Assembly (NCBI GenBank): GCA_029267335.1
Contig: JAJUJC010000006.1
Span: forward strand, 62,001-126,000
Direction of reading: 5' to 3'
DNA length: 64,000 nucleotides
From: Intestinibacillus massiliensis
GTDB taxonomy: Bacteria; Bacillota; Clostridia; Oscillospirales; Butyricicoccaceae
The notes beneath the pieces were generated by a model, which worked only from the letters and a program-made list of their open reading frames with translations, made no database searches and was not told where the DNA came from. Below, piece after piece: positions 37,956 through 52,386 of this stretch; the first letter of the stretch is position 1; each line of letters opens with the position of its first letter. A program made the position numbers and the translations under genes.

Positions 37956-39237
37956 CTATTGCATATAATTATCAAACTTCTGTTGAACCAAATAATTATC
38001 AAATTTTGCATAATTCGTATCTCCATATAATTCTTTTCCATCGTCATTATTTATCTTTGGTCTATAGTATATTTCATTCCTATATTTATAATATACATCA
38101 TAAATATAAGAGCCTGAATTGTACTGCTGATCATCACTTCGATTAAGAAAAGAATAATATTCTACTGGTTTTGTTAATGAAAACAAATTGCATATATTGC
38201 CATAACCCAAATTTAATCTTTCTTTATAAACTGGTATAACAATATTAACACCTATCTGAAATTGTAAATCATGTTCCATAAATTTTGATATACATATGTA
38301 ATTCCATCAATATCTAATTCTTTTAGACATCTCATCACAAGTTCTGGAATTATATATTCAGTCTTTTCTGCTTCTTGATGATTTTTGATTTTAAATGATG
38401 TTGCAAATACAAGTGGCCATAGTATAATTAATTTTTTTTGTAGCTCTTTATTTCGGAATTTTCCCCCATCTATAAATGGATTATAAAATCCATTTATCAT
38501 TTCTTCTGTAACAATTAAATTCAATATTTTCAGCTTTTTACCTTCTTCGTTGGCTTTAAAAGCAGAAACATAAAAACTATTTTTACTTTTGCCCGTTTCC
38601 AACCAACATGTATAGGAAGTAGCAGCAAGATATAAAGCTGGCATCTCATTACAAGTGAATCTCTGCTGAGATATTTTTTCATTAGATTTATATGGTCTAT
38701 GTACCATGCTTTTACGGCTTGTTAAAATCTCATCGCTCGATATCCTGCTTCTGAATAATGTCAATTCATGTTCATTCATATTTTCATAATAAGAAGGGGC
38801 ATTTGTTTGCAATTCTTTAAACGGAGCAACCTGTCGTAATGCATAAGATTTATCCAAATCAGAAACAAAAAAAGGATCATTAATAAAACGCGAAATAATA
38901 TTTTTATACATATAATTGCTTCCCGTTCATTTCCTAAGTTGTAAAAACTCAAAGATTTCTTTATATTTATTATTGTGTCTTCTATTCCCTGGAGTAACTG
39001 GACATTTGCATTAAAAGCCATCTTCCTTTTAAAATAATCCTTATATTTCGCCAAGATATCAAACAATGTATCGCTCATAATTACTTCAGAATCAAGTTTA
39101 CAAATTGATGGGTAACCATTCAAATTAGTATGATTTATCTCATAATTATAATTTATTAACTGCTTCAACTCTTCGGGAAATACTCTATCAATAAAGTCCA
39201 CTTGCTCAGATATTGATGTAAACTTATTTCCGCTCAT
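37956..39237 (-). pseudogene. RES-domain protein, broken by two frameshifts
   Basis: Three overlapping frames make one protein of about 425 residues. Frame 1 (39237-38900) starts MSGNKFTSISEQVDFIDRVF; it shifts at an A5 run near 38905 into frame 2, which holds the RES core: LFRSRISSDE, RFTCNEMPALYLAATSYTC-WLE with the conserved Arg, Arg and Glu. This shifts again at an A4 run near 38268 into frame 3 (HDLQFQIGVNIVIPVYKERL). RES proteins are NAD-consuming or ADP-ribosylating toxins. One base added to each A-run restores the gene, so this may be sequencing error, phase variation or decay. It is the last gene of the operon starting at 47122, a plausible toxic effector. Confidence 0.6.
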
Positions 39238-39567: not shown

Positions 39568-39999
39568 CTATGGTTTCATACTTAATGCACGATCAATACC
39601 ATTAAAATACTTTTCAATTAATGACAAAAGTTCTTCTTTGGTCGCTCTCGTTTTAGCTTCTGTAGAATAAACTTTAGTATACATCAGTTTTAATTCCTCG
39701 AGCGAAATGTTTTTTAAGCAATTTTCTTTTGCTCCTGCTTCATCCTTATTGTATGTCAAATGTTCAATATAAAATTTTTTCGCCATATCTTCATTAGTAA
39801 TTAGTTTGATTTCATCCCGTATAATTGGATTTTTAGCAGCTGTACTTTCGCCCGTACTGTTTATAATTTTTTTGATTAATTCTTCAACCTCATCAACAGA
39901 ATATTTAAAATATCCCTTGCGAAAGATTTCACTAGAGCCATAAAAATCTTTGTAAATTTTCGTCAAGTGATTAAGTATATCTTTATCTTTTACGGTCAT
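39568..39999 (-). CDS. Small charged helical protein of the island operon
   Basis: A 143-residue, Lys/Glu-rich, predicted all-helical protein (TVKDKDILNHLTKIYKDFYG at the start; ISLEELKLMYTKVYSTEAKT and RATKEELLSLIEKYF at the end). No domain is recognised. It follows the ParA-type gene by 32 bases, the position where a ParB-like or other partner of ParA is often encoded. The C-terminal helix pair resembles short DNA-binding or SAP-like hairpins, but this is only an impression. Confidence 0.5.
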   Translation of the reverse strand: MTVKDKDILNHLTKIYKDFYGSSEIFRKGYFKYSVDEVEELIKKIINSTGESTAAKNPIIRDEIKLITNEDMAKKFYIEHLTYNKDEAGAKENCLKNISLEELKLMYTKVYSTEAKTRATKEELLSLIEKYFNGIDRALSMKP

Positions 40000-40031: not shown

Positions 40032-41015
40032 TCAGCTTAATATTTCAATAATATATTTAGTTATTGTATCGTATTCACTGTGAATATTACCATTGCTGAG
40101 TGTAATTGGTATTCCATAATTTGAAGGAGTACTTCTATTATCAAGATGTCTTATATAAATATTGAATATATGATTTAACTTATCATAAACATATTTTGTT
40201 CCAGTAATCATTGATCTTGGTTTCACTGAAGTAATTGCTCTATCTAAAGCTGTCAAAACATCCATATTTCCTCCTGAACTACGATTTTTATATAATGTCT
40301 CAAGCACACCAATAAATTGGGGCCTTTCACCAAAATAATCCTTTAGTATGACTCCTCCTATATTATTATCATAAGCATATTTTAAATATGTACTTTCGAT
40401 CTCTGTTATATAATCTGCAACACCATCTGTACTTATCTCATCTCCTACAGTCGGTATTAAGTAATAATCGCATGCTAAAAATACACTCTGAATAATTAGA
40501 TTACTTGTTGGCGGACAATCAATCATTATAAAATCATAGTTTTTATCGCTGTTTTGTATATCAAAAAGAAGTCTAGATATAACCATTATATTTTTTGTAT
40601 CTTTAGAAAATCTATCGGCAATATCATTTATTCTGCTGTTTTTCATGTCTAGAACAGTGGGAATGAAATCTAAGAAACCATTGTTTTTCGAATGTTTTGG
40701 AATGTTTTTTACAGAATTTTTGATTTTTTCAAAATTCGTATATATATTTCCTTCTAGAATATTTAATCGAGTAGTCTGAGAAATATATTCTCCATACAAT
40801 TCCAAAGCATAATTTAGAGTGTTGTTAACAGCTAGTGCTGATAATTTTATATTAGTACAATCTTCGCAAATTTTGCTTAACGAACACTGTGGATCTAAAT
40901 CAATTAGTAAAACCTTTTTGTGATATTTGGTAGCAAGTTGCGCAGCAATTTCAAAAACTGTCGTTGTTTTTCCAACCCCGCCTTTATAATTCCCAAAGAA
41001 TATTTTTTTAGCCAC
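40032..41015 (-). CDS. ParA-family ATPase
   Basis: A 327-residue deviant Walker ATPase: Walker A K11-GGVGKTT, A' LLIDLDPQCSLS, and B FIMIDCPPTSNLI. ParA/MinD proteins position DNA or protein cargo. No parS-like repeats or ParB gene are seen, and the gene is embedded in the methyltransferase/kinase operon (11 bases after the receiver gene), so it more likely serves that system than plasmid partition. The C-terminal 60 residues (YIRHLDNRSTPSNYGIPITL) are extra to the ParA core. Confidence 0.8.
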   Translation of the reverse strand: MAKKIFFGNYKGGVGKTTTVFEIAAQLATKYHKKVLLIDLDPQCSLSKICEDCTNIKLSALAVNNTLNYALELYGEYISQTTRLNILEGNIYTNFEKIKNSVKNIPKHSKNNGFLDFIPTVLDMKNSRINDIADRFSKDTKNIMVISRLLFDIQNSDKNYDFIMIDCPPTSNLIIQSVFLACDYYLIPTVGDEISTDGVADYITEIESTYLKYAYDNNIGGVILKDYFGERPQFIGVLETLYKNRSSGGNMDVLTALDRAITSVKPRSMITGTKYVYDKLNHIFNIYIRHLDNRSTPSNYGIPITLSNGNIHSEYDTITKYIIEILS

Positions 41016-41026
41016 ATCAATACCCC

Positions 41027-43081
41027 CTATTTCAATTTAACTATTTCTATCTTCACTTCTGGTTTACTTTTTTTAACTATCTTTAATGCTTGTCCATTTT
41101 CTAAATCTATACGAGTTTCCTCAGACTCTAAAAGTATATGATCTTTTTTATTCGTAGGTGCTGCCTCAATACTAAATTTCGAGAGCACCCTTAGTATTTC
41201 AGCTCTCGATACTTCCCATGGTAATTTTGCAGGTTTGGAATTTGCATTCCTATCTCCTGAAAGAATAACCTGAATGCTAATTTCTCCAGAAATTATAGAA
41301 TCTGCTATAGGGATATCAAGAGTCTGGCACCGAGCTAAATTGATAGTATTATACGGCTGCCTTCCCCTATACTCAAGATATAGCTTGTATAAATAAAGTA
41401 TATAGGTTTCTGTTAATCTGCAAATTCTTCGCAACGGATAAGATAATTTATTTGCAGATTCTTCCTCATACTTATGTACAGATATAAGTCTTGGGGCATA
41501 AGTATTATCTAAGAATATATCAAAAGCTTCTCCTGCTTGAGATTTTAATGTTTTTATCGAATTATAGTACTTCTGCAACTCACCATAATAGTCAATAAGA
41601 TATGGCATCATAATATTAGCTCTATCTTCTGGCAATACCGCGTCGAGATCAATACAACATTGTCCATCTGGAGTATATGTACACAAATTAATCAACTCAT
41701 TCTCCAAGTAAACTCTTTTTGTATAATCTATCTTTAAGCAACTTGATGTATCTTCAGGACTTTTTCTAAAGTTGTTAATCATCATATAACTAAGATTATT
41801 CTTCAATTTGAACGTTTCTGTCTGTGATACGATTTGTGCCGGTATCAATTCAGAAATAGCATTTCTTCTTTTTCTGGTTTCGCTCATCATAATATCACAG
41901 TCTTGTCCAACCAAAATGTAGATTTTCCCATCATTATCTATGAAAACATCACCTGCTGCCGGAGGCTGATAAAACTTATTTACATTATAATCAAATGCTT
42001 CAAAAGTATTAAGCATATTTAAATCATCAGAAATTTCATAATCTCCAATTTCAACCTGATTGATTAGATTAGTTAATCTCACGATATAAAGAATTACATT
42101 ACTTTTAGATAATTCATAATCACACATGGTACTAATCCAAGTATTAATGATTTGGTAATTTGCAACTCCTTCATATACAGCCATTTGCGACAGGTAGAAT
42201 GCAATATTCCTGTTGATGGTCGCTTTCGAAAAAGTATCAAAAAGCCCTTTTATCACTTCATCTTTTAACTTACTTATTGCATAATTATATGTACTTCTGA
42301 GTAGTGCTGATTGTAAATTACTTTGAGCTACGGACTTATTAACATATTCAAGGAAAACATGTTCATCTATATTTTCAGTTTTTTCATGCGAAGTGACTAT
42401 GGCTCCAATAATACTATTTCGCTTATCAGTATTAAAACTTCTTATTTCGTCAATAATATTTTTAGCCCTTTTTTCACCGGAAAGCTCATTATCGATTATG
42501 CAGCAGAGGCAAGTAAATTCATTGGTTGTATTTTTATAGAACTTTTGTAAATCGTCCTTAAATGACCTGCTGTTTTCAGCATCAAAACTTGCATATATCC
42601 TAAACGGTTTCCATCTATTTTCAGATAGCAGATAATCATCGAATATTCTTTGATAACAAGGTGGAATGTTAATGCAAAGCCCATACTTTAATAATAGCTT
42701 CGCCAAATAGTCTACATTAGGCAGTTCAATAGCATTATATAAACCACTCAGGCTATCATACTGTGCTGATTCCCGTACTCTTATAATATCCATAGCGGAT
42801 TCGATATCATCCCTTATGACCTCTTCATTCCAACTTTCTATAAGGGGAAATAATTTATCCATACATTCGGAATAGCTTTTTAAAGATAATGCAAAATCGT
42901 TATGATCTTTTTCCAGTTCTGAAATAAAGTTCTTTCTGCTCTCTACATCCATCCTCGAAATAGAATAAAGAAATTTAGATTTATCTATTTCCGCATCTGC
43001 AAGAGAAAAATCATCTTCAAGAAAAACTATCATGGCACAGTCAACATTGTTAAAAAATATTTTATAATCAATTTGCTCCAT
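41027..43081 (-). CDS. Receiver-domain protein partnered with the GHKL kinase-like ATPase
   Basis: A 684-residue protein with no overall family I recognise. Residues about 158-260 have a receiver fold: FRIYASFDAENSRSFKDDLQ, then CLCCIIDNELSG with the phospho-acceptor Asp197, GAIVTSHE with Thr230/Ser231, and YVNKS with Lys249, i.e. the D-T/S-K triad of response regulators. The rest is helical; residues 375-400 (FYQPPAAGDVFIDNDGKIYI) and LVGQDCDIMMSE suggest a beta domain. Its start overlaps the stop of the kinase-like gene by one base, so the two are made together. It looks like the regulated arm of a two-component-style signal. Confidence 0.65.
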   Translation of the reverse strand: MEQIDYKIFFNNVDCAMIVFLEDDFSLADAEIDKSKFLYSISRMDVESRKNFISELEKDHNDFALSLKSYSECMDKLFPLIESWNEEVIRDDIESAMDIIRVRESAQYDSLSGLYNAIELPNVDYLAKLLLKYGLCINIPPCYQRIFDDYLLSENRWKPFRIYASFDAENSRSFKDDLQKFYKNTTNEFTCLCCIIDNELSGEKRAKNIIDEIRSFNTDKRNSIIGAIVTSHEKTENIDEHVFLEYVNKSVAQSNLQSALLRSTYNYAISKLKDEVIKGLFDTFSKATINRNIAFYLSQMAVYEGVANYQIINTWISTMCDYELSKSNVILYIVRLTNLINQVEIGDYEISDDLNMLNTFEAFDYNVNKFYQPPAAGDVFIDNDGKIYILVGQDCDIMMSETRKRRNAISELIPAQIVSQTETFKLKNNLSYMMINNFRKSPEDTSSCLKIDYTKRVYLENELINLCTYTPDGQCCIDLDAVLPEDRANIMMPYLIDYYGELQKYYNSIKTLKSQAGEAFDIFLDNTYAPRLISVHKYEEESANKLSYPLRRICRLTETYILYLYKLYLEYRGRQPYNTINLARCQTLDIPIADSIISGEISIQVILSGDRNANSKPAKLPWEVSRAEILRVLSKFSIEAAPTNKKDHILLESEETRIDLENGQALKIVKKSKPEVKIEIVKLK

Positions 43082-45717
43082 TACAGTTCCTCCGCTTTAT
43101 CTGTTGTGAGTAAAAATTTATAGCGATTACCAAACTCATTTAGATCAGGCAATAAGATAATGTCTCCATTAAATGAATTCATTAACTTCTTTACAATATA
43201 TAGTCCCATGCCACGACCTTCATTATATGGTTTTCCCGATTGAAGCGGTTCAAAAAGTATATCCTGCATGTTAGGTGTAACCCCTGTACCAGTGTCTGAA
43301 ACAACTAATCCATCGGCCCCAAGCGGTTCTACTATAATCTGATCGTCTCCGCTATATGCATAAGCAGAATCTTTTTCTGCTCTTTTACGACGTATATCAA
43401 TCCAGTATCTAGAATTACTAAATAAATTATAAAAGACATGGACCAAAACACCTTTTGGGACAAACCAGCTTAAATCATTTGTTTCGCACACCAGGTCTAT
43501 CTTGCTGGATTTTGATGCCTTCATCAAATTAGCATATACTTGCCCTGCAAGTTCTTTAATATTCTGTTCAATAAACTCATCATATGTTCCTTTTTTAATA
43601 AACGTTTTTTCAAGGAATGAATACATATCTCCTATTCGGAGTATTTTATTTGAAATTACATTATAACTATTTTTTATCGGATAAACATGTGAGTTGTATA
43701 CTTTAGCTTCCTTATTCTCAGAAAAATAATTTTTTAGAGATTCAAAATGCCCATCAACTTGATTATCAATATTAGTTGTACTTAACGAATGCAGTTCATG
43801 AGTTATAGTTTCTGTAATTAAACCATTTGCCATCAACTTGTAATTATTGTAAGATTCCACTTCAATAATTTTCAATTGTTGATCCGCTTCTGCTAATAAA
43901 TTCGCAGCTTCAGAGTGTGTATCCTGATCTTCTATAAAGTGCTCATTTATATCATCAATAACTTTTGTAACAAATTCATATGTTGTTTTGGGCATACTTG
44001 CAGAAGCACCATCTATCACGACCTTTTTCTCCAGCGTTCGTGAGACTTCTTGAATGGTGCTCATCATTTTTTTGTTTTTCTTAATCATTTGTTGAACTAA
44101 GTCAACATTTTTCTTTACACGTTTTGTTAAAGGCTCACCAAGTAGTCCCGTCTCCTCCAGAATGACTTTTACTATGCCATTTGCTTTCTGATTTAGTTCA
44201 TAAAACAATCTATTAAATACAATATAAATTAAGTTTTTGAAAGCTTCAGAAACATAGTTCTGGCTTATATCCAAACGTGAGCTTATCTCTTTAATTTTTT
44301 CTTGGTGAGGATCGTTAAGTGAAACATAGCCAACAGTGTTCCCTAAATCAAATCTAAACCATTGTTGTCCTTTAGTTCTATATTGCTGTAGTTTAATCCA
44401 GTCGCTTTCTTTATTTCCTAAAAAGCCAATTCGATAGCTTCCTCTATATAACTTAATCCCATTATAATTATCAAGGAATTGCTTCAGTTTTTTCAAATCA
44501 ACGTTTTGGATTTTGTCGCTTTTGTTTCTTTGCTTAACTGATTCAATAATAATATTATCTCCAATTGCTGCATTCTGCTTGAAACTATATATTTCACCAG
44601 AAATAGGCGCAATTTCACATAGCCTGCTTACCATTTTTAAGGCTTCATCATAAAAGTATTTTTGAATAGTTTCTTTATTATTTTTATTTATTAAATTTGG
44701 ATAAACATCCTCATAAAATGATGCTATTCGTTCACATAATTCCTCTTGGTTTATTGTAAATGTTAATGCTTGATCAATTCTTGAAGTGTTTTCGTTTAAT
44801 AATTCTTGGTAAAAATCATGAGGCTTTTTTAAGCGTGTAAAAGCATCAGCCTTTACTAAAGCGCGATGAATACGTTCAATATACCATGGTTGTAATTTCA
44901 ATCCATAGTTTAATGAGATATCATTATTGCTGTTGTTAAATGAAAAGTAATGTATGCTCTCTGATAATTCTAGCATTTCTCCCGGAAAGCGAGTCTCCAA
45001 AGGCTTATCATTAAAATACATATTAATTACTGCTGACGGCCTTGCAGAATTAAACGGTGAAACCAAAAAATTTAAAGCAGATTGCAAATCCCGATTAATA
45101 TTAGTTATTTCATTTGTAGAATCTAGACTCAATTGCACAGGATATTCTAGTAACTCTTCGAAGTTAACATTAAATATCCATAATCTAGTGTAGCTATCAG
45201 GTGATCCAGTTATCTGATCATATGGAACAACCTCTTCTCCCTTTACTATTTTATTCCAATCTAGATATGTTAACGATATAAAATCTTCACTTTCTGATGC
45301 AGTCTCAACAATAAGTGCCTCTCCGAGACGTTGAGCCGCCAACCTACCGATGCCTTTTTCGCCAAGAATTATGTCATCACCTGTTTTATTTGATTTTATA
45401 TCCGTTCCTATTTTTAAAAATCCATCTTCCAATTGGGCAGTGGACATTCCGAAACCTTTATCTTCAACAATAAGAACAGATGATCTTTTCAAATTCTCCG
45501 GAACAAAATTTAAAACCTCCTTAGGAAGAGCAGTAAGAAAATTCTTGCATTTAGTAATTTTTTCAAATTGTTCAAATAAATGGATATTAACTGTTTTCGA
45601 TTTTGCATCAATCGAGTTTTTAATAAGTTCAATAATCGCTACATCTGGAGAAGTGATAAGATCCCGCCCCAGATGCTGTATTATTCTCGGATCAATAACT
45701 ATTTTCTTTTCACCCAT
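43081..45717 (-). CDS. Dual GHKL ATPase: MORC/Hsp90-like plus histidine-kinase-like
   Basis: An 878-residue protein with two ATP-binding GHKL domains. The N-terminal one is MORC/MutL/Hsp90-like: E30-LIKN-S-ID37, VEDKGFGMS (86-92) and GEKGIGRLAAQRLG (119-132). The C-terminal one is histidine-kinase-like: an H-box LITETITHELHSL with His640, N-box NLFSNSR at 764, G1 DTGTG at 808 and G2 GRGMGLYIVKKL at 834. Residues 500-620 are helical/coiled coil. It overlaps both neighbours, the cytosine methyltransferase (8 bases) and the receiver protein (1 base). GHKL ATPases of this type have been described beside methyltransferases in restriction-modification-like loci; the present gene set was not one I could match. 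Confidence 0.8.
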   Translation of the reverse strand: MGEKKIVIDPRIIQHLGRDLITSPDVAIIELIKNSIDAKSKTVNIHLFEQFEKITKCKNFLTALPKEVLNFVPENLKRSSVLIVEDKGFGMSTAQLEDGFLKIGTDIKSNKTGDDIILGEKGIGRLAAQRLGEALIVETASESEDFISLTYLDWNKIVKGEEVVPYDQITGSPDSYTRLWIFNVNFEELLEYPVQLSLDSTNEITNINRDLQSALNFLVSPFNSARPSAVINMYFNDKPLETRFPGEMLELSESIHYFSFNNSNNDISLNYGLKLQPWYIERIHRALVKADAFTRLKKPHDFYQELLNENTSRIDQALTFTINQEELCERIASFYEDVYPNLINKNNKETIQKYFYDEALKMVSRLCEIAPISGEIYSFKQNAAIGDNIIIESVKQRNKSDKIQNVDLKKLKQFLDNYNGIKLYRGSYRIGFLGNKESDWIKLQQYRTKGQQWFRFDLGNTVGYVSLNDPHQEKIKEISSRLDISQNYVSEAFKNLIYIVFNRLFYELNQKANGIVKVILEETGLLGEPLTKRVKKNVDLVQQMIKKNKKMMSTIQEVSRTLEKKVVIDGASASMPKTTYEFVTKVIDDINEHFIEDQDTHSEAANLLAEADQQLKIIEVESYNNYKLMANGLITETITHELHSLSTTNIDNQVDGHFESLKNYFSENKEAKVYNSHVYPIKNSYNVISNKILRIGDMYSFLEKTFIKKGTYDEFIEQNIKELAGQVYANLMKASKSSKIDLVCETNDLSWFVPKGVLVHVFYNLFSNSRYWIDIRRKRAEKDSAYAYSGDDQIIVEPLGADGLVVSDTGTGVTPNMQDILFEPLQSGKPYNEGRGMGLYIVKKLMNSFNGDIILLPDLNEFGNRYKFLLTTDKAEEL

Positions 45718-46852
45718 TAAAGTTCACCTCATCAAATATTTGATTTAGGAATTCATTAACTGTCCGTGCAATCCCCAAGGCCATAAGATATGGAACACCG
45801 TTTCCTATTACTTTAAATTTGTGAGTTAAAGGCATGTCATCTGGTAAACAGAACCATGTCGGTAATGATTGTATTGCCATTGCTTCTGCTACACTTAATC
45901 TTCTCGTTTTATATGGGTGGAGATGCACTTCATTATTTCCATATGCAGCAGTCGGTGAATACCTCCAGCGATGCAGCCTTTTAAATGACTTTCTACTTGT
46001 ATCTCCTTCTGGAATTTGCAACATTTTTGTTCGACCAGCTTTTACCTGAAATGTATCCCTACCATTGGGATGATTTCTAACGTTATTATTTGCAAACCAA
46101 TGTTCCACTGTAAGAACCTCTGGCACAGGATAACGAAAAATCCGGCGACTGTTTTCTCTATATGGTTGTTCTGTTGGCCATGGTAGATGTTTAATAGCAT
46201 CTGCATCAAATTCAGCAAATTGTAGCCATGGGAAATCAAGTGTATTGTCATCCTGTATTGGTATCGCTCTCTCAGGATTATTATTTAGAACACCTATCAT
46301 AATTACTCTATCTCTATCCTGAGGAACCCCAAAACTTAAGGAATTTAGTATAGTGTCTGAAGTTGTATAGCCTGCATTAGCTAAAGCATGTTTCAACTCA
46401 TCAAAATACTCTCTATGCTTAGCAGTTTTGACCAATCCACGAACATTTTCGAAAATAAAAAAATCAGGCTGTTGCGCAATTATTAAATCAACATAACTCT
46501 GTGCTAATATACCGTTTTCTCCGTCCCTCCCAAGATTTTTACCGCCTACTGAGAAATCCGGGCATGGAGGACCGCCTATAAATCCAACTATATTATCTAA
46601 GTCATGTTGCTCTTGTAAATATCCTTGTAAGATAAGTGCATTGTCAGCAATCAAAAAATCATTTATATCTCTGCAATGATATCCATATATCGGTTGCTGG
46701 ATGTTATGATGTTGCCTAGTATAAATGTATGCGTTTAAAAAAGATTCTTTATATTCGTTTACAAATACTATATTATAATCCAAATCATTATCTTCAAAGC
46801 CAAGATCCAATAGTCCTGCTCCAGAAAAAAATGAAAAAAGTGAAATCGCCAT
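45710..46852 (-). CDS. DNA (cytosine-5) methyltransferase
   Basis: A 380-residue C5 methyltransferase with all core motifs in order: I (FSFFSGAGLLDLGFE), IV with the catalytic cysteine (GGPPCPDFSVGGKN), VI (FFIFENVRGL), VIII (QDRDRVIMIGV), a target-recognition region about 195-300, and IX/X (RRLSVAEAMAIQSLP, VIGNGVPYLMA). It marks host DNA, implying a self/non-self role for the operon; no restriction endonuclease gene is adjacent. The HTH regulator lies 57 bases upstream; an 8-bp hairpin (46873-46880 with 46892-46899) sits between them. Confidence 0.93.
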   Translation of the reverse strand: MAISLFSFFSGAGLLDLGFEDNDLDYNIVFVNEYKESFLNAYIYTRQHHNIQQPIYGYHCRDINDFLIADNALILQGYLQEQHDLDNIVGFIGGPPCPDFSVGGKNLGRDGENGILAQSYVDLIIAQQPDFFIFENVRGLVKTAKHREYFDELKHALANAGYTTSDTILNSLSFGVPQDRDRVIMIGVLNNNPERAIPIQDDNTLDFPWLQFAEFDADAIKHLPWPTEQPYRENSRRIFRYPVPEVLTVEHWFANNNVRNHPNGRDTFQVKAGRTKMLQIPEGDTSRKSFKRLHRWRYSPTAAYGNNEVHLHPYKTRRLSVAEAMAIQSLPTWFCLPDDMPLTHKFKVIGNGVPYLMALGIARTVNEFLNQIFDEVNFNG

Positions 46853-47253: not shown

Positions 47254-48687
47254 TCATAATTCATAATTTTTTATTACATCAGAATTGTGCAGCCACTCAA
47301 GTGATTTCAATCGAACTTCTAATTTCCCCGATTCATGTATTTTTACACTTTCTATCAGTAAATAAACTAAGCTGTCACTATACTCAAGAATGTTGAAAAT
47401 ACCAATTTCTTTCTGCAATCTGTCATTGATAGCATCCACAATAACTCTATGTAAAACACCCTCATCTATAGAAGGCGAGTTCTTGCATGCTTTTGGTCCA
47501 TTCTTCAACCTGTTCTTGCATCTCCACACGGCTTTTACTTTGCCAGGCTTTTTCCACAGCACCCTGCAGTAAGGATATCCGCATTCACCGCAAAATAGGA
47601 CATTGGATAGCGCATACTTGGAACTGTATCTCTTTTTTACAGAACCATTCTCATAAGACATTCCGTTTCTTTTTGATCTTTCCCGCTGTACCTGCTCAAA
47701 TTCGTCTATAGAGACGATGGCTTCATGATTTCCCTTGACAAAATATTGCGGAACGTACCCCTTATTAATAACCCGTTTTTTTGTCAGGAAATCAACCGTG
47801 CTTGTTTTCTGGAGCAGCACATCACCCATATATTTTTCATTGCTTAACATGTTCAGGACTACGCTGGAATGCCACTTTTCCTTGCCTGTGACAGTTTTTA
47901 TTCCTGCGGCTTCAAGTGATCGGCATATTTGATGACTGCTTTGTCCCTGCAGATATAAATCAAAAATCATTTTAACAACTTTCGCTTCCTCTGGAACGAT
48001 AACCAGCCTGCAGTTTTCATCTTTGATATAGCCCATAAATTTTTTATGATTAACCAGAACATATCCTTTTTCAAACTTACGTATAATACCCCAGCGTGTG
48101 TTTTCACTAAGATTTCGGCTTTCTTCCTGTGCTTGGCTGCTTAAGATTGTTAGCAGAAGCTCTCCTGAGTTCTCCAGGGTATTAATCCCTTCCTTTTCAA
48201 CTATGACACCGATATTTTTATCTTTGAGCTTTCGAATGTACTGCAGTGAATCCACTGTATTTCTGGCAAATCGGCTGACCGATTTTGTGATTACCAGATC
48301 AATCTTTCCTAGCATACAATCGTTGAGCATTGCTTTGAAATCATCACGCTTCTTTATATTTGTTGCACTTTTTCCGTCATCGGCATAAATACCAGCCAGT
48401 GTCCATTTATCATTTTTTCTAATTTTTTCTGTATAATATGCTACCTGCGCTTCATAACTGTTTTCCTGCTTCTCCTGACTTGTACTCACCCGGCAGTAAG
48501 CTGCTACCCGCAGTCTCTTTAATCCCGGTCTGATAAGCTTGTTATATTCTTCTTTTGCCGGAATAATAATTACCTCTTTTTCTTCCTCATTCATATTAAT
48601 ATACCTTTTATCATAACTATCATGTTTTTTGAAACCTACCAATAGGCGGCTATAACCACTGGTTACTGCCGCCTTGTTGTCAGCCAT
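47254..48687 (-). CDS. Large serine recombinase, C-terminally shortened
   Basis: A 477-residue recombinase: N-terminal catalytic resolvase domain (RVAAYCRVSTSQ, nucleophile Ser68; RFARNTVDSLQYIRKL), a recombinase domain (GYIKDENCRLVIVPEEAKVV), and a zinc-ribbon (LFCGECGYPYCRVLW...CKN). The tail after DAINDRL lacks the long coiled coil of relatives (about 60 residues missing) and joins directly to a C-terminal strand. Such proteins integrate Tn4451/Tn1549-like elements. The loss of the coiled coil may disable synapsis. It begins 8 bases inside the end of the SLH-recombinase chimera. Confidence 0.85.
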   Translation of the reverse strand: MADNKAAVTSGYSRLLVGFKKHDSYDKRYINMNEEEKEVIIIPAKEEYNKLIRPGLKRLRVAAYCRVSTSQEKQENSYEAQVAYYTEKIRKNDKWTLAGIYADDGKSATNIKKRDDFKAMLNDCMLGKIDLVITKSVSRFARNTVDSLQYIRKLKDKNIGVIVEKEGINTLENSGELLLTILSSQAQEESRNLSENTRWGIIRKFEKGYVLVNHKKFMGYIKDENCRLVIVPEEAKVVKMIFDLYLQGQSSHQICRSLEAAGIKTVTGKEKWHSSVVLNMLSNEKYMGDVLLQKTSTVDFLTKKRVINKGYVPQYFVKGNHEAIVSIDEFEQVQRERSKRNGMSYENGSVKKRYSSKYALSNVLFCGECGYPYCRVLWKKPGKVKAVWRCKNRLKNGPKACKNSPSIDEGVLHRVIVDAINDRLQKEIGIFNILEYSDSLVYLLIESVKIHESGKLEVRLKSLEWLHNSDVIKNYEL

Positions 48688-50023
48688 AATAAGAAACCCT
48701 TTGCTTCATCACAATTCCAGACTTGAATTGTATCTCAAGCGTATCCTCGCTTATAACCTTGATACTCTGAAGCAGTCTCCGCACCAGATCATTATCAAAT
48801 TCCCGCACCTCGCAGGACACCTTTTTCAGGCAGGTATCCATGTCATTGACCCTCTGCTGAAAATTCGTAGCCTGCTTTTGTTCTCTGATGATATCCAGCT
48901 TCTTTTGATTAAGCCCTTTGATCTGCTCAGCAATTTTTTGATACTGTTCATCAAAATCCTCGGTAACAGAACCTTTTTGAGCGTTTTCCTCAATCAAAGC
49001 CAGCATATCACCTTGAAGCCTTGTGATCTGTTCGTCGTATTCGGTAGGTACATTTTTCGTCGAGTAGCTGCCGATGACCTGAATTACATTCTCTCTGAAG
49101 GCTCCTACAAAATCACCGCGGTTTTCAACGACACTGTTGATTGCGGTCATGACCGCTTCATTTAGTACTTCCTCTTTAAGCGTATATTTCCACACGGGCA
49201 TCACCTTTATCTCAGTATCGGTGTGTGCAGTTTCGGGCAGGTCAAACCGCACCTGCGCATCCGGGACATAACAGGAACCACCGCCTGAACTACCGCCCGG
49301 CGTGGGTGTCGACGTCGGTGTTGGAGACGGTGTCGTTGTCGGCTGTTCCTTATCCGGGTCGGTAGGCGTCGGTGTGGACTGTCCATCCTTCGGCGCTGTC
49401 GGAGACTGAGTTGGTGCGGTGGAGTCGGTTGCCGAGGATGTCGGGGACGGCGTTGGAGTAGCCGGCGTTGGGATCGTCTTATCGATCAGATCATTGGCTT
49501 CTCCTTTGGTCATCGGGTCGTTCGGATGGAGCTTATTGTCCTCCGTATCTCCGATGATGCCATCCTCCTTTCCTACGATAACATAGCCCTTATCATCGTC
49601 TGCAATATCCGACTGGTCATCGTAGCCGCTGTGTCCCTGGGTGTTTTTCGCTTCCTCGTCCTGGCCCTTGGCCCGCACAATCATTTTGATGATCTCGGCG
49701 CGGGTGATGGGCTCGTCTGGCTTGAAGCCGTCTTGGTAATCGGCTGGATCAATGATGCCTGCATCAACGAGGGCCTCAATATACTTCTCTGCCCAATGCC
49801 CGTCGATTTCGGAGAAGCTGGGCGTGTCCTTGTCTGATTTTGAGGTATCCAAATCAAGCTCCTTTGCCAGCTCCGCAGCAAATTCCCCGCGGGTGATGAT
49901 GTCGTTCTTCCCGACGAAATTCTCTGGATGCAGACGGTAGGCTGTGTAAATACCGCCGCAGACCAATACCACCAGCAGAAGAGCTAAAAGAAGGATACCT
50001 TTCTTTTTGCCTTTTATGTTCAT
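48680..50023 (-). CDS. Chimera: SLH-domain surface protein fused to a recombinase tail
   Basis: Residues 1-30 from ATG 50023 form a signal-anchor; 40-180 carry S-layer-homology repeats (DIITRGEFAAELAKELDL, EIDGHWAEKYIEALVDAGII, PITRAEIIKMIVRAKG); then a Pro/Thr-rich spacer and VRFDLPETAHTDTEIKVMPV. Near base 49178 the sequence changes, within the phrase YTL-KEEVLNEAVMTAIN, to the coiled coil and tail of a serine recombinase (MTAINSVVENRGDFVGAF, IVMKQRVSYYG). The SLH protein is a usual cargo gene of these elements; the fusion must come from a deletion joining it to a tandem recombinase. It is in frame and could be expressed, but no function is likely. Confidence 0.75.
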   Translation of the reverse strand: MNIKGKKKGILLLALLLVVLVCGGIYTAYRLHPENFVGKNDIITRGEFAAELAKELDLDTSKSDKDTPSFSEIDGHWAEKYIEALVDAGIIDPADYQDGFKPDEPITRAEIIKMIVRAKGQDEEAKNTQGHSGYDDQSDIADDDKGYVIVGKEDGIIGDTEDNKLHPNDPMTKGEANDLIDKTIPTPATPTPSPTSSATDSTAPTQSPTAPKDGQSTPTPTDPDKEQPTTTPSPTPTSTPTPGGSSGGGSCYVPDAQVRFDLPETAHTDTEIKVMPVWKYTLKEEVLNEAVMTAINSVVENRGDFVGAFRENVIQVIGSYSTKNVPTEYDEQITRLQGDMLALIEENAQKGSVTEDFDEQYQKIAEQIKGLNQKKLDIIREQKQATNFQQRVNDMDTCLKKVSCEVREFDNDLVRRLLQSIKVISEDTLEIQFKSGIVMKQRVSYYG

Positions 50024-50114
50024 ATAATTTTCATTCCTCTCTTTCCTCATAAATTTGATTGTGACAAGACCGGAATCAGCACATACTGACTCCGGCCTTA
50101 AATCCTGACATACT

Positions 50115-51453: not shown

Positions 51454-52386
51454 TTATTCCTTTCCATTAAAACCGGCAAGGTCAAAGAGTCCCAGCTGAG
51501 TTGGCATATCCCGAAGTCGTTCGCCAGTGTCGTAGTTAGAGATAAGAACTTCGGCATATTCGCAACCGTTGTCATACCGTTGGGCGAGATTGTTCAGGCG
51601 GCTGACAGATTCGATCCGGAAATCTTGATACAACTCACGTATGAATTCACGGTCATTGTAGCTGACCAGCCATTTCCCCTGACAAGCTACCAGTGTATCC
51701 CGCAAGCGGTAGTGATCTTCCTTGAGGAACTCCACTGCATAGTGGCCTTCCGTCATGTAATACGGCGGGTCACAGTAGATGAATGCGTTTTCTCGGTCGT
51801 ACTGTTTAATCAGATATTCAAAGTCCTTGTTCTCGATAACCGTATCCTTTAATCTGCGGCTGCCCTGCCAGAGAAGGTTGAATGTTTTGCGTATATCAAA
51901 GGGCTGGCATCCATAGCTGGTGCAGCCGCTTCCGTAACTGTAACGAATAATTTTGAAGAAAACAGCCGCACGTTTTATGTCATTCATTTGTGCTCTATCC
52001 AGAAGAATTGGCTTGATTTCATCAAGCTGTGGTTGGGTGAGATATTGCTCTGCAATCTCCAGCTCCTCTTGCAGGTATTCGTTTGTGAAAGCCTCCTTCT
52101 CTAAATATTTTTTAAGTACAGAAAATTCATCCCGGCCGTTTAGGGGTAAAAAATTTAGTTCCTTTAAAAGTGCCATTGGACGATCACGGACACAGCGAAA
52201 AAGATTTACGAGATCCGAATTGAAATCGTTATATACCTCCATTGACGTATCCGGAGGGCGGCCGAACAATATCCATCCTCCGCAACCAAAAACCTCAATG
52301 TACCTGCCAAACTCCTTGGGCATTCTTTGGTAAATGAGATCCCGCAGGGCTTTCTTACCTCCCACCCAGCTGATAATGCTGTTCAT
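51454..52386 (-). CDS. DNA adenine methylase (Dam/D12 class)
   Basis: A 310-residue N6-adenine methyltransferase. It begins ISWVGGKKALRDLIYQRMP (SAM-binding motif I region), has YIEVFGCGGWILFGRPPD, EVYNDFNSDLVNLFRCVRD, and catalytic motif IV CDPPYY (in AFIYCDPPYYMTEGHYAVEF). Orphan Dam-like enzymes are usual cargo of Tn1549-type elements, protecting them against restriction or setting expression. It is translated right after a small Cys protein gene (4 bases gap). Confidence 0.92.
   Translation of the reverse strand: MNSIISWVGGKKALRDLIYQRMPKEFGRYIEVFGCGGWILFGRPPDTSMEVYNDFNSDLVNLFRCVRDRPMALLKELNFLPLNGRDEFSVLKKYLEKEAFTNEYLQEELEIAEQYLTQPQLDEIKPILLDRAQMNDIKRAAVFFKIIRYSYGSGCTSYGCQPFDIRKTFNLLWQGSRRLKDTVIENKDFEYLIKQYDRENAFIYCDPPYYMTEGHYAVEFLKEDHYRLRDTLVACQGKWLVSYNDREFIRELYQDFRIESVSRLNNLAQRYDNGCEYAEVLISNYDTGERLRDMPTQLGLFDLAGFNGKE

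Follow-up and report, generated by a model that had tools for sequence, protein, structure and literature searches.

A predicted soluble kinase with a MORC-type ATPase half and its receiver-barrel partner in a DNA-methyltransferase operon of Intestinibacillus massiliensis

The closest described system is a pair of proteins reported by Bellieny-Rabelo et al. in 2021 (PMC8011034). In this arrangement, a protein with the domains HATPase_c_3, HEF_HK and HATPase_c occurs with a Response_reg_2 protein, and the pair lies beside C5 methyltransferases. ATPases of the paraMORC type had been recognised earlier in restriction-modification (R-M) loci, and were proposed to loop DNA (Iyer et al. 2008, PMC2292703). 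A further system concerns DNA phosphorothioation, where PAPS reductase and DUF4007 are components of Ssp and of type-4 BREX (PMC12839542). No experimental study of the kinase-receiver pair was found in openly licensed PMC text.

The locus described here lies in a stretch of 64,000 nucleotides from Intestinibacillus massiliensis (assembly GCA_029267335.1, contig JAJUJC010000006.1, positions 62,001 to 126,000), called the window below. Five genes form an operon in the order methyltransferase, kinase, partner, ParA-family ATPase and 143-residue protein (Table 1). The methyltransferase and kinase genes share 8 bp and the kinase and partner genes 1 bp, while gaps of 11 and 32 bp precede the ParA gene and that of the 143-residue protein. 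The start codon of the partner, whose gene is translationally coupled to that of the kinase, overlaps the stop codon of the kinase in the sequence TAATG, with GGAGG upstream. In 81 of 82 relatives the gene after the kinase is likewise co-directional and less than 50 bp away, with a median overlap of 4 bp.

Table 1. Features of the operon and its surroundings (window coordinates; residue numbers refer to the encoded protein)
Feature	Coordinates	Strand	Basis
paraMORC-histidine kinase, 878 aa	43081..45717	-	HATPase_c_3 and HATPase_c (Pfam); model resembles MORC3 and HK853
N-terminal GHKL/Bergerat ATPase domain, residues 7-190	45148..45699	-	Pfam HATPase_c_3; conserved E30/N34/G88/G90/G119-R125
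S5/transducer-like domain, about residues 210-480	44278..45090	-	MORC3/Hsp90 structure match spanning 7-513; conservation
Long helical (coiled-coil-like) connector, residues 488-649	43771..44256	-	Secondary structure of the model
DHp helix hairpin, residues 623-707, including H640	43597..43851	-	Alignment, model and structure matches
His640 codon, predicted phospho-acceptor	43798..43800	-	H in 83/83 aligned proteins
Kinase CA (ATP-binding) domain, residues 713-878	43084..43581	-	Pfam HATPase_c; Z ~17 to histidine kinase structures
Partner, 684 aa: receiver, helical linker, beta-barrel, C-terminal extension	41027..43081	-	ORF, alignment, model, fold matches
Receiver (REC) domain, residues 15-289	42215..43039	-	Invariant D197/K249 (n=45); Z 8-9 to CheY/StyR; profile match to PDB 6ont
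MazF/PemK-like beta-barrel, residues 372-576; G377 and C395 invariant, R574 near-invariant	41354..41968	-	Fold match; sequence profile without MazF link
C5-cytosine DNA methyltransferase, 380 aa; overlaps kinase start	45710..46852	-	Pfam DNA_methylase E 1e-47
ParA-family ATPase, downstream of partner	40032..41015	-	Pfam AAA_31 E 3e-29
143-aa protein, downstream of ParA	39568..39999	-	No Pfam match
Serine recombinase, adjoining operon	47254-48687		
D12 adenine methyltransferase	51454-52386		

The kinase gene is an uninterrupted open reading frame with an ATG start. An earlier note on this DNA had proposed two GHKL ATPase sites in the one polypeptide, a MORC-like site and a kinase-like site with an H-box, joined by coiled coil. 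Both sites turn out to be complete by Pfam, motifs and conservation. The first matches HATPase_c_3 over residues 23-164 (E 7e-18) and has the motifs E30-L-I-K-N34-S-I-D-A, D86-K-G-F-G-M and G119-E-K-G-I-G-R; the second matches HATPase_c over residues 758-855 (E 8e-11) and has N764-L-F-S-N768, D808-T-G-T-G-V and G834-R-G-M-G-L. The three ATP boxes of the kinase appeared together in none of 20,000 shuffles of the 878-residue sequence. The H-box reads THELHS (T639-H640-E641), and the S5/transducer-like domain has a conserved GIKLYR...DW motif (G420, R425, D439, W440).

Two sets of defining features are combined in one chain. GHKL motifs followed by an S5-type transducer are those of MORC and paraMORC proteins, while those of a DHp-CA histidine kinase are the N, G1 and G2 boxes and a His carried on the first helix of the DHp hairpin. 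The protein had also been described as a kinase without a membrane segment, and a 19-residue hydropathy scan agrees, finding no membrane helix (highest mean 1.06).

The structure of the kinase was predicted with AlphaFold2 from 66 sequences (mean pLDDT 85.6). On structure re-alignment, the best PDB match to residues 7-513 is mouse MORC3 (Z 18.7, rmsd 3.2, 300 residues), and residues 623-877 match HK853 in complex with RR468, as well as other kinases, at Z ~17. Foldseek places MORC2 first (E 7e-11) and gives HK853 an E of 9e-9. Because of these fold matches, the first half of the modelled protein is assigned as a MORC ATPase-transducer and the second as the core of a histidine kinase. Long helices link the two sites in the model, much as the predicted coiled coil required. 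Helix 577-649, with His640 close to its end, and the subsequent helices 652-667 and 675-707 form the DHp hairpin, after which comes the alpha/beta CA domain. Residues 620-660, for which a pair of dimerisation helices had been anticipated, are modelled as part of this antiparallel hairpin, like the DHp domain of HK853.

A seed alignment was used to scan 84,980 species genomes, which yielded at least 518 relatives; 80 loci were fetched. Position 640 is H in all 83 aligned full-length kinases, and position 641 is mostly acidic, with 73 E and 6 D. Asn764, Asn768, Asp808, Gly836 and Gly838 are each invariant (83/83). In the N-terminal half E30, K33, N34, G88, G90 and M91 are each found in all 82 rows that cover the positions, and the catalytic residues of the first site in general are invariant or nearly so where rows cover them.

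In histidine kinases, the metal is held by the second Asn of the N-box. Asn764 is the first Asn of this box in the 878-residue kinase, and Asn768 is presumably the metal-binding one. The earlier note had singled out His640 and Asn764 as residues whose invariance should be checked. Neither is lost in any homologue of the alignment, but the expected metal ligand is Asn768, which is equally invariant, rather than Asn764.

One rival explanation does without phosphotransfer. In this model, the protein is an ATP-driven motor of the MutL/MORC kind that loops or clamps DNA, and the second GHKL site with its H-box is a dimerisation relic or an ATP sensor. The top structural match does come from the MORC-type half, and DNA looping has been proposed for paraMORC ATPases in R-M loci (PMC2292703). 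Against this, His640 and the kinase boxes are kept in the 83 sequences down to ~20% identity, and the partner keeps D197 and K249, which would be needless for a relic. A pure clamp motor is accordingly considered quite unlikely.

The 684-residue neighbour had been called a receiver protein, and this is borne out by its alignment, its predicted fold and its profile matches. D197, K249, G377 and C395 are invariant in 45 aligned partners, and D22, D23 and R574 are nearly so. The partner model (pLDDT 83.6) contains a receiver fold whose first strand (residues 15-21) is split from the remainder by a helical insertion of ~130 residues. In structure comparison, known receivers such as CheY and StyR align to this fold with Z 8-9. 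The features of a receiver are all found: an acid pair after strand 1 (residues 22-24), an Asp after strand 3, a Lys after strand 5 and a (beta-alpha)5 fold. The family profile of the partner matches the PDB receiver 6ont (E 7e-5), and the short partner of a Campylobacter relative (340 residues) matches Response_reg at E 2e-5, just under the Pfam cut-off.

The partner also contains a beta-barrel, and the nature of this domain matters for what the pair might do. The modelled barrel aligns to S. aureus MazF with Z 8.8 and rmsd 2.6 over 103 of 115 residues, although a Z near 8 may reflect a common arrangement only; the Foldseek E value is only 0.6. In a profile-profile comparison with 24 MazF sequences, the GDIF strand alone was aligned, weakly above shuffled profiles, with a probability of 1.2%. 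A hmmsearch of the barrel against PDB sequences returned designed knot proteins only (E 0.08).

In a second rival explanation, the pair is an abortive-infection toxin: phosphorylation of the receiver would free the barrel, which would then arrest growth as a ribonuclease of the MazF kind. The fold match covers 90% of the MazF chain, and R-M loci are often associated with suicide modules. On the sequence side, none of the 45 partners matches PF02452 (PemK_toxin) at E 0.1, the profile-profile probability is as low as stated above, and the partner in the window has no counterpart of the Arg-Pro that is conserved in MazF ahead of its third strand. The toxin model is thus judged improbable. Homology of the barrel to MazF by sequence was rejected, with the GDIF strand alone aligned and nothing but designed knot proteins matched among PDB sequences. 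Since the Foldseek and profile scores are weak and PemK_toxin gives no match, the barrel is not called a toxin here; it appears to be MazF-like by predicted fold only, and to form a family of its own with an invariant Cys.

The barrel profile is found in 63 of 82 downstream genes, although it was built from 45 of the partners against which it was then searched; elsewhere in the loci it occurs only in pieces of partners. About a quarter of the downstream partners have no barrel by this profile, mostly in C5 or unassigned contexts. A fold search of the partner against viral structures gave no significant match, and a tblastn search in plasmids found neither the partner nor the 143-residue protein.

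Distances between kinases and distances between partners covary strongly, with a Mantel r of 0.90 compared with a maximum of 0.16 in 1000 permutations, a correlation that simple co-inheritance gives too. This is as expected for proteins that interact, or that are at least inherited together. The partner diverges faster than the kinase.

A recognised DNA-modification gene lies near the kinase, within about five genes, in 72 of 85 loci. The modification is of three types: 31 loci have a C5 methyltransferase, 22 an N6/N4 methyltransferase, and 19 a PAPS reductase and/or DUF4007, five of these also with a cysteine desulfurase. The remaining 13 have none of these. Vsr-like endonucleases are present in 16 of the 85 loci. 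In eight loci (L025, L035-L037, L052, L057, L060 and L066) the pair comes directly after the PAPS-reductase gene, together with DUF4007 and a protein of ~1100-1160 residues; judged by gene content, these may be phosphorothioation-type systems with a two-component module. TnsE-like transposition genes occur near the pair in four loci, from Halalkalibacter, Paenibacillus, Colwellia and a gammaproteobacterial MAG (L031, L032, L070 and L076), which suggests that the pair is carried there as cargo of Tn7-like elements.

On a tree of 83 kinases, the modification context changes 9 times, compared with 42.5 times when labels are shuffled. The chemistry is thus mostly kept within kinase clades, yet has switched several times. 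The window kinase and those of loci L010, L011 and L012 make up a C5 clade with good support; its sister is an N6/N4 branch (SH-aLRT 97), and it stands apart from the main C5 clade, although this is a quick tree whose single branches need caution. Among the matches listed, the closest kinases are those of an unclassified bacterial MAG (L011, 52-53% identity), Enterococcus (L010, 49%) and Mucilaginibacter (L012, 34%). The methyltransferases of these three loci are 47-55% identical to that of the window, whereas none from the other loci listed exceeds 28%, which indicates that methyltransferase, kinase and partner travel together. Because one module follows three modification chemistries, its sensor seems to respond to a modification machine being present, or to unmodified DNA of any kind, and not to one chemical mark.

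A third rival explanation is purely regulatory. In this model, the two-component system controls the linked modification or restriction enzymes, and the barrel binds protein or nucleic acid without killing the cell. The pair occurs with and without recognisable nucleases and with all three chemistries, and a regulatory role was put forward as speculation in PMC8011034. However, none of the classical DNA-binding outputs known from response regulators is detected in the partner by Pfam, and its invariant Cys, accompanied by an Asp and an Arg that hardly vary, is more suggestive of an active site than of a general binding surface. The regulatory model is regarded as unlikely.

Three of 87 genomes of the host family match the kinase at 1e-5, the window's own included, and within the window genome a single further match is weak (E 0.01). 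Among 391 genomes of the host class, the window genome alone has a member of its clade. A scan of viral contigs with the window kinase as sole query found no relative. The PADLOC 2023 library matches neither the kinase nor the partner of the window; some kinase relatives match its REase_II models, probably via the GHKL domain.

Around the operon, from 28 to 48 kb, the GC content drops to 28-37%, within a region that otherwise has 52-61% GC. More broadly, window positions 28000-54000 have 28-47% GC, with the minimum at 38-40 kb, and are likely an acquired island that holds the operon, the serine recombinase and the D12 adenine methyltransferase. The low GC and the adjoining recombinase indicate that the operon is probably a recent acquisition.

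The genes that accompany the module vary. ParA and the 143-residue protein were rejected as members of the module, neither being matched in related loci; here they are probably co-transcribed with it, as local accessories. Downstream genes differ among close relatives as well, with HNH_2 in L011 and DUF5677 in L010. No restriction nuclease was recognised beside the methyltransferase or the operon within the window.

Two further reading frames lie nearby on the minus strand. The ORF at 48680-50050 (456 residues) has an S-layer homology domain near its start, and by eye its end resembles the tail found at the C-terminus of large serine recombinases; it is possibly a fusion made by the island insertion. 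The ORF at 38252-38911 (219 residues), downstream of the operon, has a weak RES-domain match (E 0.03) and may encode a RES-type protein that has decayed or diverged.

The preferred model draws on the domain anatomy, the invariant catalytic residues of both partners, the coupling of their genes, their covariation and the association with modification genes. On balance, the pair is probably a soluble two-component switch in a DNA-modification locus, in which a DNA or ATP clamp controls the output of a kinase to a receiver-effector. The methyltransferase would mark host DNA. The first GHKL site and the S5 domain would act as an ATP-driven dimer clamp of the MORC/MutL type, judging by their fold, and engage DNA or a DNA-bound complex. 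The long helical connector may then relay the state of the clamp to the DHp helices, with gating presumably in this direction.

Next, the second GHKL site would phosphorylate His640, and the phosphate would pass to Asp197 of the receiver. Such a relay is supported by the invariance of every required residue in both proteins. The phosphorylated receiver might activate the Cys-containing MazF-fold barrel, or let it recruit a locus-specific nuclease. The trigger could be DNA lacking the mark; the input may be DNA, a nucleotide or the state of the methyltransferase.

A broader version of this model is more tentative. The pair may possibly be an interchangeable module, in which an ATP-gated DNA clamp reads several modification chemistries (5-methylcytosine, N6/N4-methylation and phosphorothioation) and signals by His-Asp phosphotransfer to a new class of catalytic-Cys barrel effector. 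A functioning phosphorelay would mean that a two-component system uses a MORC-type DNA clamp as its input domain, and that the marking of DNA as self or non-self is tied to cytoplasmic His-Asp signalling. In that case the pair would also provide a bacterial test system for what MORC ATPases sense, with phosphorylation as a simple readout.

How does the pair compare with known systems? The earlier note had implied that the architecture is novel. This is not supported, since PMC8011034 already reports the same architecture and partner, and paraMORC ATPases have been placed in R-M loci since PMC2292703. As in the HEF_HK/Response_reg_2 (PF19191/PF19192) pair described there, one soluble protein combines HATPase_c_3, a His-bearing helix domain and HATPase_c, an adjacent receiver-like gene has the conserved Asp and Lys, and a C5 methyltransferase lies upstream. 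Unlike that pair, the window clade falls outside the main C5 clade, beside the N6/N4-methyltransferase branch. At a cut-off as loose as E 10, neither HEF_HK nor Response_reg_2 gives a match in the window genome, despite the receiver-like nature of the partner, and HEF_HK matches 4 of 51 family proteins sampled. The portion of PMC8011034 concerned with the pair does not report the barrel.

The paraMORC GHKL-S5 ATPases (PMC2292703) share the N-terminal GHKL and S5-like domains and a neighbourhood of cytosine methylase, HNH and Vsr nuclease, but the C-terminus here is a histidine kinase rather than a nuclease or TIR domain. Eukaryotic MORC2 and MORC3 have a similar ATPase module, MORC3 being the best structural match, whereas the window protein is fused to a kinase, lies in a bacterial DNA-modification context and has no other MORC domain by Pfam. 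The HK853-RR468 system of Thermotoga maritima has the same DHp-CA fold and a receiver partner. In contrast to HK853, the window kinase has a whole MORC-type ATPase in the position of the membrane sensor, and the receiver of its partner is interrupted by a large insertion and joined to a putative barrel effector. Finally, PAPS reductase, DUF4007 and cysteine desulfurase of type-4 BREX and Ssp (PMC12839542) neighbour one clade of the pair; the window lacks these genes, and the text of that article mentions neither MORC nor a receiver.

The architecture is therefore not a new kind, and the window protein belongs to a divergent, separate clade of four members beyond the published Pfam models. To the known systems, the present analysis adds the assignment of the two halves to MORC3 and HK853 folds, the combination of receiver and barrel in the partner, the range of three chemistries, the covariation of kinase and partner, and the separate clade.
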